Shown here: positions 1 to 6,152 of the stretch, piece after piece | How the letters are laid out: each line of letters starts with the position of its first letter | How positions within the stretch are numbered: the stretch's first letter is position 1 | Assembly (NCBI GenBank): GCA_022763365.1 | Contig: JALEGN010000018.1 | Span: forward strand, 1-38,936 | From: Minisyncoccota bacterium | GTDB lineage: Bacteria > Patescibacteriota > Minisyncoccia > Phycocordibacterales > UBA1006 | Length of the DNA: 38,936 nt | Reading direction: 5' to 3' | Translations under genes and position numbers: made by a program | Notes under the pieces: generated by a model | What the model saw: the letters and a program-made list of their open reading frames with translations, nothing else | Told to the model about the DNA's origin: nothing | Database searches by the model: none

Positions 1-713
1 CGGAAAAATACATCTACATCATTACCATCTTCAACTTCACCATTTAGCACTGCTGAGTTTTCATCAACGTTAGTAGCGTTATTGGTTCGGATTTCTACAT
101 TTAATGGTGCTTGTCCTGTATTTTCAATTCGGAAGTTAGCAACAACATATCCTTGGTCACACCAACCATTTTGGTAGTCATCAAGGTCACCAATATTAGC
201 ACCTGAACCAAAGAGTTGTGATTCTGAAACAGGATCATTTCGGTTATACCCAGCACAGAATTGTGGGTCGGTTGTCCCATGAGTATTTTCAATATAGGCA
301 TTTACAAATTCAATTTCAAAATCTTGTGGAAGGTTTTGCAAGTACGCTTGGTCATTTAAACCAGAGTTTGTTGCATTGTTACCAGTTAAGGTACCCGTGA
401 TGGTTCCATTAGTGATTAAGTTTGTAATATTATTGAATTTTCCTCGGGTATTCGTAATCGTTCCTGAACCTTCGTTTCGGAAATCAATAAATACGGTAAA
501 TTCATCAGTATCTCCATAGTTAGGAATGTTTACTGAAAACGAATCGTTTTGATTCGCACTGTTTGCTGAATCGTTTGATGCAATCGAAACAAATCGCGTT
601 GAGCTGTTTGCAGGATTATTATCAAAGGTTCCAGCCGCTGCAAAAGAAGCTCCTCCTGTAAGGAGTAGCGCCACAAATGCAGTTTTAAGAATATTTTTAA
701 TAAATGTTTTCAT
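1..713 (-). CDS. Secreted surface protein, 3' end truncated by window edge
   Basis: Open frame read by hand from ATG at 713 to the window edge: MKTFIKNILKTAFVALLLTGGASFAAAGTFDNNPANSSTRFVSIAS..., N-terminal signal peptide, Thr/Asn-rich beta-type sequence. Absent from the ORF track because it has no stop in the window. Upstream TTGACA-16-TAATAT promoter on the minus strand. Confidence 0.8.
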   Translation of the reverse strand, partial: MKTFIKNILKTAFVALLLTGGASFAAAGTFDNNPANSSTRFVSIASNDSANSANQNDSFSVNIPNYGDTDEFTVFIDFRNEGSGTITNTRGKFNNITNLITNGTITGTLTGNNATNSGLNDQAYLQNLPQDFEIEFVNAYIENTHGTTDPQFCAGYNRNDPVSESQLFGSGANIGDLDDYQNGWCDQGYVVANFRIENTGQAPLNVEIRTNNATNVDENSAVLNGEVEDGNDVDVFF

Positions 714-833
714 GATAAATAATGTGATAATTAAATAATGTTACTAATACTAAATATATTATCATAAATAATATATTTGTCAAGTTTCCATACATGAGTT
801 TTCAATAGAAATCTATTAACCACTCATTCATAG

Positions 834-886
834 AAAGGAAAGAAATCAGCATACATATATAGTATATATGATTTCTTTCCTTTTTT
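834..886. terminator. Long perfect inverted repeat, terminator-like
   Basis: AAAGGAAAGAAATCA (834-848) / TGATTTCTTTCCTTT (869-883) followed by TTT; the AT-rich interior can also pair. Confidence 0.6.
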
Positions 887-911
887 ATTCCTTATTTAAG
901 AATATTTTGTT

Positions 912-1751
912 TTAAAAACTAAATCCGAAGCTAAATCCGACACCTCGTGGCGCATTTACCTGTGGCATCATTGAATTTAATTGACTTTGTAATTGATATT
1001 GAATCAAAGAACTCGACAAATTAACTCCATTTGGATTATGATCTGGTCCACCTGGTCCATCCGGATTAACAAATACTACCTTTGGATCCTTGGTAAAAGG
1101 TTGATCAAACCATTCAAAAGGTTCTCCATCAATAATCCAATCTGCCAAAGAATACGCAACTACTGCGCCAGCTACATACCATAACCAACCCCAATCAGTT
1201 TTTTTCTTTACAACAGTTACCTGACTAAAATCATTATAGGGCTGACCATATCCATAATCCCCATAAATACCGGTTCCTGAACCAGTCGTTAAGGTATAAG
1301 GATTTGCCCTGGTATCTGTGTCAGTATTTGTTGTACCATTAGTGTTTGGACAAGTAGAACAGTTTACATTCACAATTATAGTATCAGAACTTGTGGTGCT
1401 AGTAGTAGATGTAGTACTGGTGGTATTGCTAATAATAAACATAGTTGATGAGATAATAGTATTACCACATTCCCACGCTCGTATTGGCGTACCATTTCTA
1501 TCAGCAACATACCAGTCTCCCGGTTTTAATCTACAACCTCCGTTTTCACATTGGTTCCAAGAAGCTGCTGGTGACATTGTCACCAGTAATTCTTGACCGG
1601 CTTGGACTTGAAGTTTCTGTTCGCCAAGGTCCGTTCTGACAACTTTTGCAAGGTTTGTGTAATTTGAAACCAAATTACAGTAACATTTCTGTTGTGCTGT
1701 AGCTGATAAACCTATCAACAAAACAGCAAAAAGTGTGAGTATTTTTTTCAA
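912..1751 (-). CDS. Secreted hypothetical protein with CGNTI motif, Ser/Thr linker, TM segment and GPGGPDHNPNG tail
   Basis: 279 aa, signal peptide MKKILTLFAVLLIGLSATAQ; motif WECGNTI; minus-strand promoter TTGACA-17-TATTTT upstream. Confidence 0.8.
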   Translation of the reverse strand: MKKILTLFAVLLIGLSATAQQKCYCNLVSNYTNLAKVVRTDLGEQKLQVQAGQELLVTMSPAASWNQCENGGCRLKPGDWYVADRNGTPIRAWECGNTIISSTMFIISNTTSTTSTTSTTSSDTIIVNVNCSTCPNTNGTTNTDTDTRANPYTLTTGSGTGIYGDYGYGQPYNDFSQVTVVKKKTDWGWLWYVAGAVVAYSLADWIIDGEPFEWFDQPFTKDPKVVFVNPDGPGGPDHNPNGVNLSSSLIQYQLQSQLNSMMPQVNAPRGVGFSFGFSF

Positions 1752-1880
1752 AATTAATTAATTTTTAAGGTTATACATATTTTGTATTTCAAATTAATGA
1801 GAATGATTTCATTTAATAAAATATCAATAAATTTTTTAAATGTCAACACTTTTCACAGGATATCCACAGATTCAACAAAA

Positions 1881-1916
1881 AACAAAACCCTACGAATGAA
1901 ATCGTAGGGTTGTTTT
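1881..1916 (-). terminator. Intrinsic terminator of the 1948-2799 gene
   Basis: CCCTACGA-N5-TCGTAGGG hairpin with A/T tracts on both sides. Confidence 0.75.
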
Positions 1917-1947
1917 CATAATCATGTTATGAAAATCTATTTTGTTT

Positions 1948-2799
1948 TTAGTTATGACCAGGTCCTCCGTTAGTATTGGTGTTGGTATTAGTTCCACCAC
2001 CGTTACCGTTATGACCAGGTCCTCCAGTATCCGTATTACCACCATTACCTTGATTATAATAATTATTGTTCGTAGTTGTACGCTCAATTAAACGAGTTAC
2101 ATTTTGAACAGTAACATTACCATCACCATTAAGTAAATCAATAGTCGAAGCCGTAGCGCCAATACCAGAAACTATAGTTCCTGCGATTGCCCAGTTACGA
2201 CTTTGCTTTGCATATCTAGCTGCAGCTTCAGTATTAGCAAGAATTTGCTCGTTCTGAGTTGCAATTGTTGCAATAGCATTTCCATTATTACGAACTTCAG
2301 CTAAGATAACTTGTTGGTTTTGACCCAATTGAGCCTGACCAGCAGTTAAATTATCTAGTTTCTGATTCGTTTCAGTTAAATCAACAACCTGAGTTGTTAC
2401 ATTAACTTGAGGTCTTACAACGATTTCTATCTTGCCGTAGAATTTCATATTTTTGATTGTGTTTCCACAAGTCACTGCTGAATGGATATTTCCATTTGGC
2501 ATAATGATAAATCTTTCGGCTGGATTTTGGTAGTGACCACCATTTACTTCAGTGTTTACTGGAGCGGCTTGGTTATATTCTACCCACATACCTTCATATC
2601 CTCTAGCATTAGCAATCTGCTGCGCTGTTTGGATAGAGTAACCGTTTGGTAAATTACCAGTAGCGGCGTAATTACGGGCAACATCATTATTTGCGAAATT
2701 GTGCCCCGGTGTAAGAACTGCATACTGATTAGTAGTGTTTTGAGCATTAAGCCCGATTGCCATAATAGCAAGTACGAATGTTAAGATTACATTTTTCAT
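1948..2799 (-). CDS. Secreted hypothetical protein with CGNTI motif, coiled-coil and Gly/Asn/Pro-His C-terminal tail
   Basis: 283 aa, signal peptide MKNVILTFVLAIMAIGLNAQ; VTCGNTI motif; tail GGPGHNGNGGGTNTNTNTNGGPGHN. Confidence 0.8.
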   Translation of the reverse strand: MKNVILTFVLAIMAIGLNAQNTTNQYAVLTPGHNFANNDVARNYAATGNLPNGYSIQTAQQIANARGYEGMWVEYNQAAPVNTEVNGGHYQNPAERFIIMPNGNIHSAVTCGNTIKNMKFYGKIEIVVRPQVNVTTQVVDLTETNQKLDNLTAGQAQLGQNQQVILAEVRNNGNAIATIATQNEQILANTEAAARYAKQSRNWAIAGTIVSGIGATASTIDLLNGDGNVTVQNVTRLIERTTTNNNYYNQGNGGNTDTGGPGHNGNGGGTNTNTNTNGGPGHN

Positions 2800-2801
2800 A
2801 T

Positions 2802-2990
2802 CTGAAAGTTTTAAATTGTTATTTAATTTTGTTTTTTAGAGCATGTACTCTGTAATACCAACAATAATTTGCAAACATTACAGAGTACAAGTTCCATCAA
2901 AAATTAAATGAACTTTCAGGAAAAATTTAATATTGATTTGTAAGGAACTTGACTCTGTAATTAATTTATCATATTTTAAATAATTTGTCA
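2802..2990 (-). promoter_or_regulatory. Promoter and structured 5' leader with three mutually exclusive pairing arms
   Basis: Minus-strand TTGACA (2990-2985), 17 nt spacer, TAAATT (2967-2962). Arms: A 2845-2856 GTACTCTGTAAT, B 2877-2895 ATTACAGAGTACAAGTTCC, C 2944-2961 GGAACTTGACTCTGTAAT. B pairs perfectly with A (12 bp) or with C (18 bp, one bulge). An outer repeat CTGAAAGTT...ATTTAATTTT / AAAATTAAAT.GAACTTTCAG encloses A-B. Confidence 0.6.
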
Positions 2991-3045
2991 AGTAAAAAAC
3001 CATCTTCTTTATAGGAAGATGGTTTATGTAATTTTGTAAATACCG

Positions 3046-3900
3046 TTATTGTCCTAGTCGCTTTGATGTAGCAACATCTTTTTTTCGACTATCATTTTGA
3101 TCAACTTCAAGATAAAAACCGTTAATGGCAACCCCTGCAGAATCTGCAAGAACACACCATTCCTGATTAGAAAGCGATACTGTAATGTAATACTTCCTTC
3201 CTTCGTAAATAAAATAAATACGCCTTGTATTGTCTTCAATAAGAAAACCAGATTGAAACACCTCATTTGGGTTGCACCCTTGACCACAGGTCAACAAAGC
3301 TAGGCGATATCGCACATCAGATGTTTGATATTGTCTATTTTGATTTATGGTGGGTGTTGCTCGCCTTAAACGTATAACATGTGAACTACTCGATGTTTGT
3401 CGGTTTGATGTATATCTATTTTGTCTTTGTACATCAGGGATAAAAAGAAAGGTATCTCCACCTATCTCATTACCTCCGTCAATTTTCAAATGAACTTCAC
3501 TATATCGCGCATGACCAGTTGAATCAGCTACAAAACCAGTGATTTCATTCAAGAAAGGAGCTGTTATAGGAACGTCACTATTATTCAAAATTTTTCTCCC
3601 TTTTTCATCGGTTACAAAAAATCGAGAAGGAACAATAAGAGTTTCCCCAGAATAGGTATCTTTACGATACACAATACCACCTGACACAGAATCGGGTTGC
3701 TTAAACGCAGCTGGGTCTTTAAAGAAAACAATATCACGATCAAGATTTAGATACGTACCAACAATAGAGGATGTATCAATTCTAGTTGCTGCCATTGCTT
3801 CATCAGTAAAAGGAACATTAGTTTCTTTTACGATGACCTGATTTACACCACAAGAACTCAACAAAATTGTAAAAATCAAAAGAATAAATATATTTTTCAT
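3046..3900 (-). CDS. Putative lipoprotein
   Basis: 284 aa, MKNIFILLIFTILLSSCGVNQ with a lipobox-like LSSC; TTGACA-type promoter upstream. Confidence 0.75.
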   Translation of the reverse strand: MKNIFILLIFTILLSSCGVNQVIVKETNVPFTDEAMAATRIDTSSIVGTYLNLDRDIVFFKDPAAFKQPDSVSGGIVYRKDTYSGETLIVPSRFFVTDEKGRKILNNSDVPITAPFLNEITGFVADSTGHARYSEVHLKIDGGNEIGGDTFLFIPDVQRQNRYTSNRQTSSSSHVIRLRRATPTINQNRQYQTSDVRYRLALLTCGQGCNPNEVFQSGFLIEDNTRRIYFIYEGRKYYITVSLSNQEWCVLADSAGVAINGFYLEVDQNDSRKKDVATSKRLGQ

Positions 3901-4025
3901 TTAATTGTAAATTTTTGTATATAGATATACTACACACAGATTAAACAGATTTGTTTAAAATATACAAGAATTATTTATTATGTCAATTATTTTTCCCCAT
4001 TAGTAAATATATAAAAAACAGTTTT

Positions 4026-6152
4026 CTAAACTGTTTTTACATCATGATGTTCAATTTCTTCTCTAATTTGTCGTATTTTATCTGACATATCAATTCCAGG
4101 ATTATGTAATTGATGCTGGTGCATTTCCTCTAGATCATCAGCAAGTCCTTTGAATTTTTTATGTGTTTTGGCAAAATCTTTTGATTCATTAAAGGTTTCT
4201 TCGGCCTGGGAATGTTTGAGGAGTTCTAAAATAGTCGTTTGAACTTTTTGAATTTGATGACTGATGTCGTGTTCTGGATCAATACGTTGCCGGTCTTCGA
4301 GTGAACGCAGGTAATCAATCAACAATGAAATTTCAACAGATTTTGTATTGAAAACGGCTTCTGGATTAATTTCTTGAGTATTAATGATGGTTTGTTTTTT
4401 ACCTAATTTTGAACTTATATTATTTTCAGAATCTTCATCAGAATCATCTTGAGTAATATTTTTGATGTTTAAATCAATAACTTTTTTTACTTCATCGAGC
4501 GAAGTAATACCATTAAGTATTTTAACAACACCATCCTCCCGCATATTAAGAAGACCTTGTTTTTCAGCCACCTTTCGAACATCTTGTTCTGATGGTTTTT
4601 GGTTTAAGAGTTCCTCAATTTTATCATCAGTGATGATGGCTTCATACAATCCAATTCTACCTTTATACCCTGTTCCATTACATGCTTCACACCCTCTTCC
4701 TTTAAAGAGTTTTATCTCTTGATCAATAGCCAGTCCATAATCATGAAGATTTTTATTATTTCTATCAGCCTCAAGGAGAATATCTCGAATAGTCGCTTCT
4801 TCTTTTTCAGTAGGTTGTACTTCTTCTTTACAATGTTCACAAACTTTTCGGACAAGTCGTTGTGCAATTGAAACTGATAGGGCTGCGGCTAAAATCTGAG
4901 GTGATACCCCAAGATCAATTAAACGCGGAATAACTCCCGCTGCAGAGTTAGTATGGAGTGTTGAAAGAACGAGATGACCTGTTAGTGATGCATTCACAGC
5001 AATTGATGCTGTTTCGCCATCACGAATCTCCCCAACCATAACGATATCAGGATCTTGACGTAGTGCCGCGCGCAATCCAGAGAGAAAGGTATATCCTTTT
5101 TGTCGGTTTACTTGAGTTTGACTAATCCCTTCAAGGTGATATTCAATAGGGTCTTCGATGGTAAGGATTTTTACTTCAGGAGAGTAGACTTTGTTCATAA
5201 ACGAATACAAACTTGTTGTTTTACCAGAACCAGTCGGCCCTGTGGTCAAAATCATACCGTTTGGTTTTTCAATTTCTTGCATAAGAATCTCAAAAAGCTT
5301 TGGTTCAATCCCAAGATTTTCAATTCCTACCTTAATTCCATCAGGATTTAAAATACGCATTACAAAAGATTCCCCATAGGCACTTGGAATCACTGATACA
5401 CGTACCTCAATCTCTTTACCATCGTAGTCAATCGTAAAACGACCATCTTGGGCATTTTTAGTTTGGGTTAACTTCATATTTGAGAGCAACTTGATTCGTG
5501 AAAGAAGTTTTTTGTAGGATTCATGATCCATTTCCGCAACATCCTGGAGGACACCGTCTTGCCGGAATCTGATACGAACCTGTTCATCTTGAGCCTCAAT
5601 ATGAATATCTGAAGATTTGGTACCAATAGCACCACCAAAAATAACCTCCATGAATTCGGTTGTTTTTTTGATGCTGTCACCTTCTAAGACCTTGTTAAAC
5701 TCAGCTGCAATATCACTGTTTCGTTTTACATTTTCCGCAAGTTCTTTTAGTTTCTCAGGAGAAATATCCAAAAGACCTCCTTGGGTAGAAAGTGCGTGAG
5801 ACATGTCACCATAGCGATCCCAAGCTTTCTCAAGACTTCGCGTAGATACCATATGAACACCAAGATTGTATTTTTTCTCAAGTTCAGCAAGAACGCTTTT
5901 GGTTTGATTAAGATTTGGTGATTTAACAGCAATATAGAGATCCTTACCGACAATTTTAAATGGTGCAACGAGACCTGCTCGTGCATCTGCCTCAGGAAGA
6001 ACTGCTAGAGCATCAGTTTCAATATTCGCACCCGAAAGATCAATATACGGAAGACCAAATTTTTGCGAAACACGCTCAACAAAAACTTCCTCTTCTTTAT
6101 TTCTAATTTCCTGAACCTTCTTCGATTGGGCGGTGTTATCAAAATCAACCAT
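4026..6152 (-). CDS. pilB: Type IV pilus/T2SS assembly ATPase, PilB/GspE family, with about 150 aa C-terminal extension
   Basis: Walker A GPTGSGKTTSLY, Walker B/Asp box DPDIVMVGEIRDGETA, CxxC...CxxC zinc motif (CEHC...CEAC). Start re-assigned from 6194 to 6152 (MVDFDNTAQSKK) because the upstream part overlaps a terminator. Confidence 0.93.
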   Translation of the reverse strand: MVDFDNTAQSKKVQEIRNKEEEVFVERVSQKFGLPYIDLSGANIETDALAVLPEADARAGLVAPFKIVGKDLYIAVKSPNLNQTKSVLAELEKKYNLGVHMVSTRSLEKAWDRYGDMSHALSTQGGLLDISPEKLKELAENVKRNSDIAAEFNKVLEGDSIKKTTEFMEVIFGGAIGTKSSDIHIEAQDEQVRIRFRQDGVLQDVAEMDHESYKKLLSRIKLLSNMKLTQTKNAQDGRFTIDYDGKEIEVRVSVIPSAYGESFVMRILNPDGIKVGIENLGIEPKLFEILMQEIEKPNGMILTTGPTGSGKTTSLYSFMNKVYSPEVKILTIEDPIEYHLEGISQTQVNRQKGYTFLSGLRAALRQDPDIVMVGEIRDGETASIAVNASLTGHLVLSTLHTNSAAGVIPRLIDLGVSPQILAAALSVSIAQRLVRKVCEHCKEEVQPTEKEEATIRDILLEADRNNKNLHDYGLAIDQEIKLFKGRGCEACNGTGYKGRIGLYEAIITDDKIEELLNQKPSEQDVRKVAEKQGLLNMREDGVVKILNGITSLDEVKKVIDLNIKNITQDDSDEDSENNISSKLGKKQTIINTQEINPEAVFNTKSVEISLLIDYLRSLEDRQRIDPEHDISHQIQKVQTTILELLKHSQAEETFNESKDFAKTHKKFKGLADDLEEMHQHQLHNPGIDMSDKIRQIREEIEHHDVKTV

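Follow-up and report, generated by a model that had tools for sequence, protein, structure and literature searches.

The window, i.e., the whole stretch of 38,936 nucleotides analysed here, is contig C11 of G000, a Patescibacteria genome of 762 kb. Relatives that carry a name are Candidatus Campbellbacteria/Paceibacterota MAGs. Between a lipoprotein gene and the gene of a secreted protein it carries a structured leader, the elements of which are listed in the order of transcription.

3046..3900, minus strand: upstream lipoprotein gene (LSSCG), syntenic in the genus
2997..3025, minus strand: terminator-like hairpin of the lipoprotein gene, directly next to the leader promoter
2986..2991, minus strand: -35 hexamer TTGACA, by sequence match
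2963..2968, minus strand: -10 hexamer TAAATT with an extended TG upstream; predicted transcription start site (TSS) at ~2956
2944..2961, minus strand: arm C, ATTACAGAGTCAAGTTCC, at the transcript 5' end; partner B
2911..2919, minus strand: outer arm O5, CTGAAAGTT; partner O3
2876..2895, minus strand: arm B, GGAACTTGTACTCTGTAATG; partner either C or A
2838..2857, minus strand: arm A, TATTACAGAGTACATGCTCT; partner B
2802..2810, minus strand: outer arm O3, AACTTTCAG, 3-11 nt 5' of the start codon; partner O5
1948..2799, minus strand: regulated gene, coding for a 283-aa protein with signal peptide MKNVILTFVLAIMAIGLNAQ and CGNTI motif, without a Pfam, NCBIfam or PDB family

On the minus-strand transcript, the promoter is followed by C, O5, B, A and O3, and then by the ATG at 2799. 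The promoter is of the sigma-70 type (TTGACA-17-TAAATT, 2991-2963). At the DNA level, C and B form 18 bp with one bulged base. The predicted TSS falls inside C, and the 5' part of the RNA is expected to be AGAGTCAAGTTCC, with approximately 13 bp to B. A and B pair over 13 uninterrupted bp (2877-2889 with 2844-2856). As C-B and B-A make use of the same B bases, the two pairings are mutually exclusive. O5 and O3 form 9 bp, the end of O3 being 2 nt away from the ATG, and enclose a second, AU-rich helix (2900-2909 with 2821-2830). The original prediction had placed the arms and the outer stem at these very sites on the minus strand, and had given C-B its 18 bp and its bulge; it was also right that A-B is perfect, though the stem has 13 bp rather than the 12 it reported. 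Its claim that C begins at the TSS agrees with the promoter, which sets C at about +1. A TSS downstream of B, named there as evidence against the element, is not what the promoter predicts.

Including the window, the leader is present in seven species of the genus (the window and six others), always in the same syntenic place; a near-copy of the G009 leader on a short G008 contig was left out of these seven distinct leaders. The gene order pilB - lipoprotein - leader - secreted protein 1 - secreted protein 2 is shared by G000, G004, G005, G006, G007, G008 and G009. All seven leaders have a promoter of the form TTGACA-17 nt-TAnnnT, and promoter and arm C are 83-85% identical across four genus genomes. 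Linkers and loops vary in sequence and length, and the most constant part of the arms, GAGTC, is paired. The mutually exclusive pairings of B, the outer stem around A-B next to the start and the position of C at the TSS, all proposed for the window, hold in all seven leaders, and O3 lies 1-15 nt 5' of the ATG in five distinct leaders matched by the descriptor given below. The arms change together, e.g., GGCTGAG..CTTTAC/GTAAAG..CTCAGC in G005 and AGAAGTCA/TGACTTCT in G008.

Covariation across homologous leaders had been suggested as a check of the element, and its outcome is positive, with compensating changes in the seven distinct leaders. We computed duplex energies for each arm of one species paired with each arm of another (n = 7 leaders). 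With hand-set arms, the own-species pairings C-B, B-A and O5-O3 each rank 1 out of 5040 permutations, in a test that ignores the species tree and covers seven leaders of one genus; C-A and C-O5 do not reach this rank. Fixed windows positioned solely by the promoter or the ATG give rank 1 out of 5040 for all three pairings once more, and each pairing is at 1 out of 720 after removal of any single leader. For six of the other seven arm combinations, the cognate value is reached in 568-4419 of the 5040 permutations of the fixed windows. O5-B gives a weak signal (187/5040), the O5 and B windows being adjacent. Compared with shuffled C, C-B reaches p = 0.001-0.02 in 6 out of 7 leaders, while G007 (p = 0.13) is not significant on its own. 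Structure could not be read from the initial MAFFT alignments of the leaders. In a curated alignment of four leaders, both-sided changes occur in 12 of 23 pairs, compared to 1-4 with slid partners, but this alignment was built from arms selected for pairing and is thus illustrative. Judged from the sequences, the three-arm structure is very probably conserved in the genus by compensating changes.

The window leader is more stable than expected by chance (MFE z = -3.95; none of 200 shuffles is as stable). A descriptor that combines C-B and B-A sharing B with an outer stem ending near the start matches none of 60 leader shuffles. It matches 7 of the 1586 ATG starts of G000, close to the shuffled rate of 5, the window leader being the top score. 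Two in-genome matches were rejected: the second one, C12:48488-48572, is a terminator-like hairpin behind a gene, and C17:8745 precedes an apparently unrelated RadC-like gene. The arm motif occurs just once more in the G000 genome, so that the leader is a single-copy element rather than a regulon site.

Alternative-fold prediction, likewise proposed for the window, shows the succession C-B, then A-B, then O5-O3 with growing transcript length in 7 out of 7 leaders, where a path is the MFE structure per length, without kinetics or a C-B/O5-O3 pseudoknot. On this measure, an early pairing is replaced by a stabler later fold, as is typical of a metastable switch. For the window leader, the MFE structure retains some C-B pairing up to nucleotide 154, with the ATG at 158. 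In the full fold, the region -12..+12 is predicted to be unpaired at 0.21-0.35, which is at or below the 13th percentile of 462 mechanically called starts. When C-B is enforced, the predicted value rises to 0.43-0.69. The shift is modest in the window itself (mean 0.27 to 0.43), with the AUG 0.66 unpaired in the OFF fold. Low access in the final fold and higher access with C-B support a switch at the level of translation that is OFF in the final fold.

Start signals across the genome are of interest here. Shine-Dalgarno sequences are not enriched in G000 (12 of 448 starts versus 15 in the control region), so that what counts is probably the openness of the start region; a 16S gene, from which the anti-Shine-Dalgarno sequence could be read, was not found in the assembly. 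Of 464 ATG starts, 87 have a TATAAT-like hexamer at precisely -12, compared with about 6 at background offsets; for TGnTAnnnT the corresponding numbers are 65 and about 2. By these motifs, many G000 genes seem to be leaderless, with transcription from the start codon itself.

The computed results, namely the covariation of the three pairings, the order of the MFE path and the predicted change in start access, point to a cis-acting, translation-level RNA switch in the leader of the secreted protein, OFF by default, to which we assign a probability of roughly 0.55. In this model, the transcript 5' end (C) would pair with B first as RNA polymerase advances. C would be displaced from B when A emerges, and once O3 and the start codon have emerged, O5-O3 would close around the A-B hairpin and hide the initiation region, such that the finished leader would be OFF by default. 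If C-B were held, be it by kinetics, a ligand, a protein or another RNA, or if invasion by A were blocked, the initiation region would stay open and synthesis would be on. Translation would thus be the controlled step, the default in cells would be OFF, and some signal would presumably shift the balance.

We consider it rather unlikely that the leader is simply a static structure, in which A-B and O5-O3 serve to make the mRNA more stable or to fold up the leader, with C-B as a mere folding helper and no regulated switching. The C-B state is 4-19 kcal/mol less stable than the final fold, and C-B without a helper may therefore not last long enough to have an effect. In a genome where many genes look leaderless, folding the leader away could imitate a start of that kind. 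However, the exclusive C-B pairing is itself kept by covariation, and most genes have a more open initiation region.

Mutually exclusive stems before the start codon are the usual expression platform of riboswitches, and with translational riboswitches (Rfam cis-reg) our leader shares such stems controlling start-site access. A leader of this type, sensing a ligand or protein that stabilises C-B (or A-B), is nevertheless improbable. We see no conserved unpaired core resembling an aptamer; linkers and loops vary, and the constant GAGTC is paired. At the Rfam gathering score, the sole match in the window is a tRNA, and the leader scores far under the cut-offs.

Fast divergence of the arms with retained complementarity would also be expected of a target of a trans-acting or antisense RNA, since in type I toxin-antitoxin and plasmid copy-control mRNAs the stems diversify while complementarity persists. 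The type I toxin mRNAs hok and AapA3 (Helicobacter pylori) have metastable leaders with such pairing at the 5' end (PMC6733600). Our leader resembles them in a transient pairing during transcription, followed by a stabler fold that hides the ribosome entry site. It differs in that no Shine-Dalgarno sequence and no antisense RNA were found, and in that the inhibitory partner O5 is in the 5' leader and not at the mRNA 3' end. The product is a secreted protein of 270-380 aa instead of a small toxin, the arm motif occurs a single time elsewhere in the genome, and the leader has no convincing antisense promoter (only a 9/12 match, pointing outward). Altogether, an antisense target is quite improbable.

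The original prediction had also considered a tandem operator, with C, B and A as copies of one repressor site. C overlaps the TSS, and the three arms are similar sites of 12-18 bp in alternating orientation. On the other hand, the arms change sequence together in relatives (G005, G008), i.e., they diverge while complementarity persists, which disfavours a DNA operator. Further, O5-O3 differs in sequence yet covaries, the site is absent from other promoters, and the motif has one other genomic copy. In 6 out of 7 leaders the fold of the transcribed strand is more stable than that of its complement, the window being the exception with a slightly stabler complement. We regard the operator as very improbable. 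Quasi-palindrome correction (replication template switching) creates apparently compensatory changes in short-loop hairpins such as A-B and could match arms without selection, but it would hardly keep C-B (54-87 nt from start to start) and O5-O3 (~100 nt) in 7 out of 7 leaders at a near-fixed distance to the ATG, and we practically dismiss it.

With respect to the RNA switch, the geometry noted in the original prediction is retained, while two of the types offered for it are not. Attenuation by an intrinsic terminator was rejected: there is no terminator-like site in 2961-2799 (minus strand), and no U-run follows A in the window or in the relatives. A thermosensor is not supported either, as predicted access varies very little over 10 to 45 C; in the range of 20 to 45 C it changes by at most 0.10 except in G007 (0.26 to 0.38).

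In ermC-type attenuation and in secretion-monitor leaders, alternative stems hide a downstream start site. Our leader has alternative stems as well, and its product is secreted, but in contrast to these systems it comes without a conserved leader peptide. A candidate uORF exists in the window and in G004, is fused in-frame in G009 and is absent from G006 and G007; an ermC-type leader peptide was rejected as a conserved feature. At L045:1253-1348 (G009) and at L062:261-356 (the short G008 contig), an ORF that starts at arm B continues in frame across A and O3 and joins the secreted protein (MRLLRADGWCNDD...MKNLIL).

In the leader of the MS2 maturation gene, a metastable pairing at the 5' end comes first and is followed by a long-distance stem that shuts off the start region. 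The likeness to our leader consists in this early 5' pairing and the subsequent long-distance stem over the start, whereas here we deal with a cellular Patescibacteria gene with an SD-less start and with unrelated sequence. The MS2 5' UTR is a named example of a metastable leader (PMC6733600).

We searched for further members with covariance models. A model of four leaders, the window not among them, puts the window leader at the top in G000 (27.6 bits, E 0.06). The E-values of model R1 are rough, since loops were cropped for its alignment A5. R1 gave no match in 297 genomes of the order, a search whose stricter filters also missed known members. With better filters, it returned known leaders and weak matches from 20 genomes of the family, and those inspected are not this element. 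The G005 leader was missed in the family search, and members elsewhere may thus have escaped the model. Within the reach of this insensitive order-wide search, no leader of this type was found outside the genus. Searching for homologues of the window protein gave no other leader-bearing member: there was one weak C-terminal match, in G019, and the genome contigs yielded nothing.

The G011 leader retains the outer stem and A-B, without C-B. It belongs to a CGN-type secreted protein (L051, 2800-3250) and has the promoter, a long AU-rich hairpin and the outer stem. It is possibly a degenerate or an ancestral two-arm version.

We tentatively suggest, with some doubt, that these leaders form a genus-specific, previously undescribed family of three-strand-exchange RNA switches in Patescibacteria. 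Its arms would drift while the three pairings are kept, and it would occupy one genomic slot before changing secreted proteins, in an organism many of whose genes are leaderless and free of Shine-Dalgarno sequences, answering a signal such as host contact. As three competing pairings persist in diverged sequence, it would represent a clean natural three-strand exchange under selection. In the literature on gene regulation in Patescibacteria (CPR), we found almost nothing, and no such structured leader described. Inducible expression is something that a 2024 review of tools for Patescibacteria asks for (PMC11665869). If our reading is true, the leader is a native translation switch before a secreted protein, in a group where little is known about the regulation of host interaction, and possibly a part for such expression.

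The regulated proteins have no family from Pfam, NCBIfam or PDB. Secreted protein 1 comprises several families, namely the window protein alone, G008/G009, G004/G007 and G005/G006. Throughout the slot behind pilB (window 912-2799 and 3046-3900; L045, L046, L047, L049, L050, L052), the families of the lipoprotein and secreted-protein genes vary by species, while gene order and signal peptides are kept, the peptides often ending in AQ, as in Bacteroidota.

Two other arrangements were seen in the genomes. At L133 (G008:C81, ~4190-4257), three copies of AACCTTACGAATA or its reverse complement, the last of which adjoins an ATG, form a different three-arm arrangement. L131 (G001:C54, 214-291) holds a perfect palindrome with approximately 20 bp per arm (TTGAACTGACTTTTTCACGATCGTGAAAAAGTCAGTTCAA).
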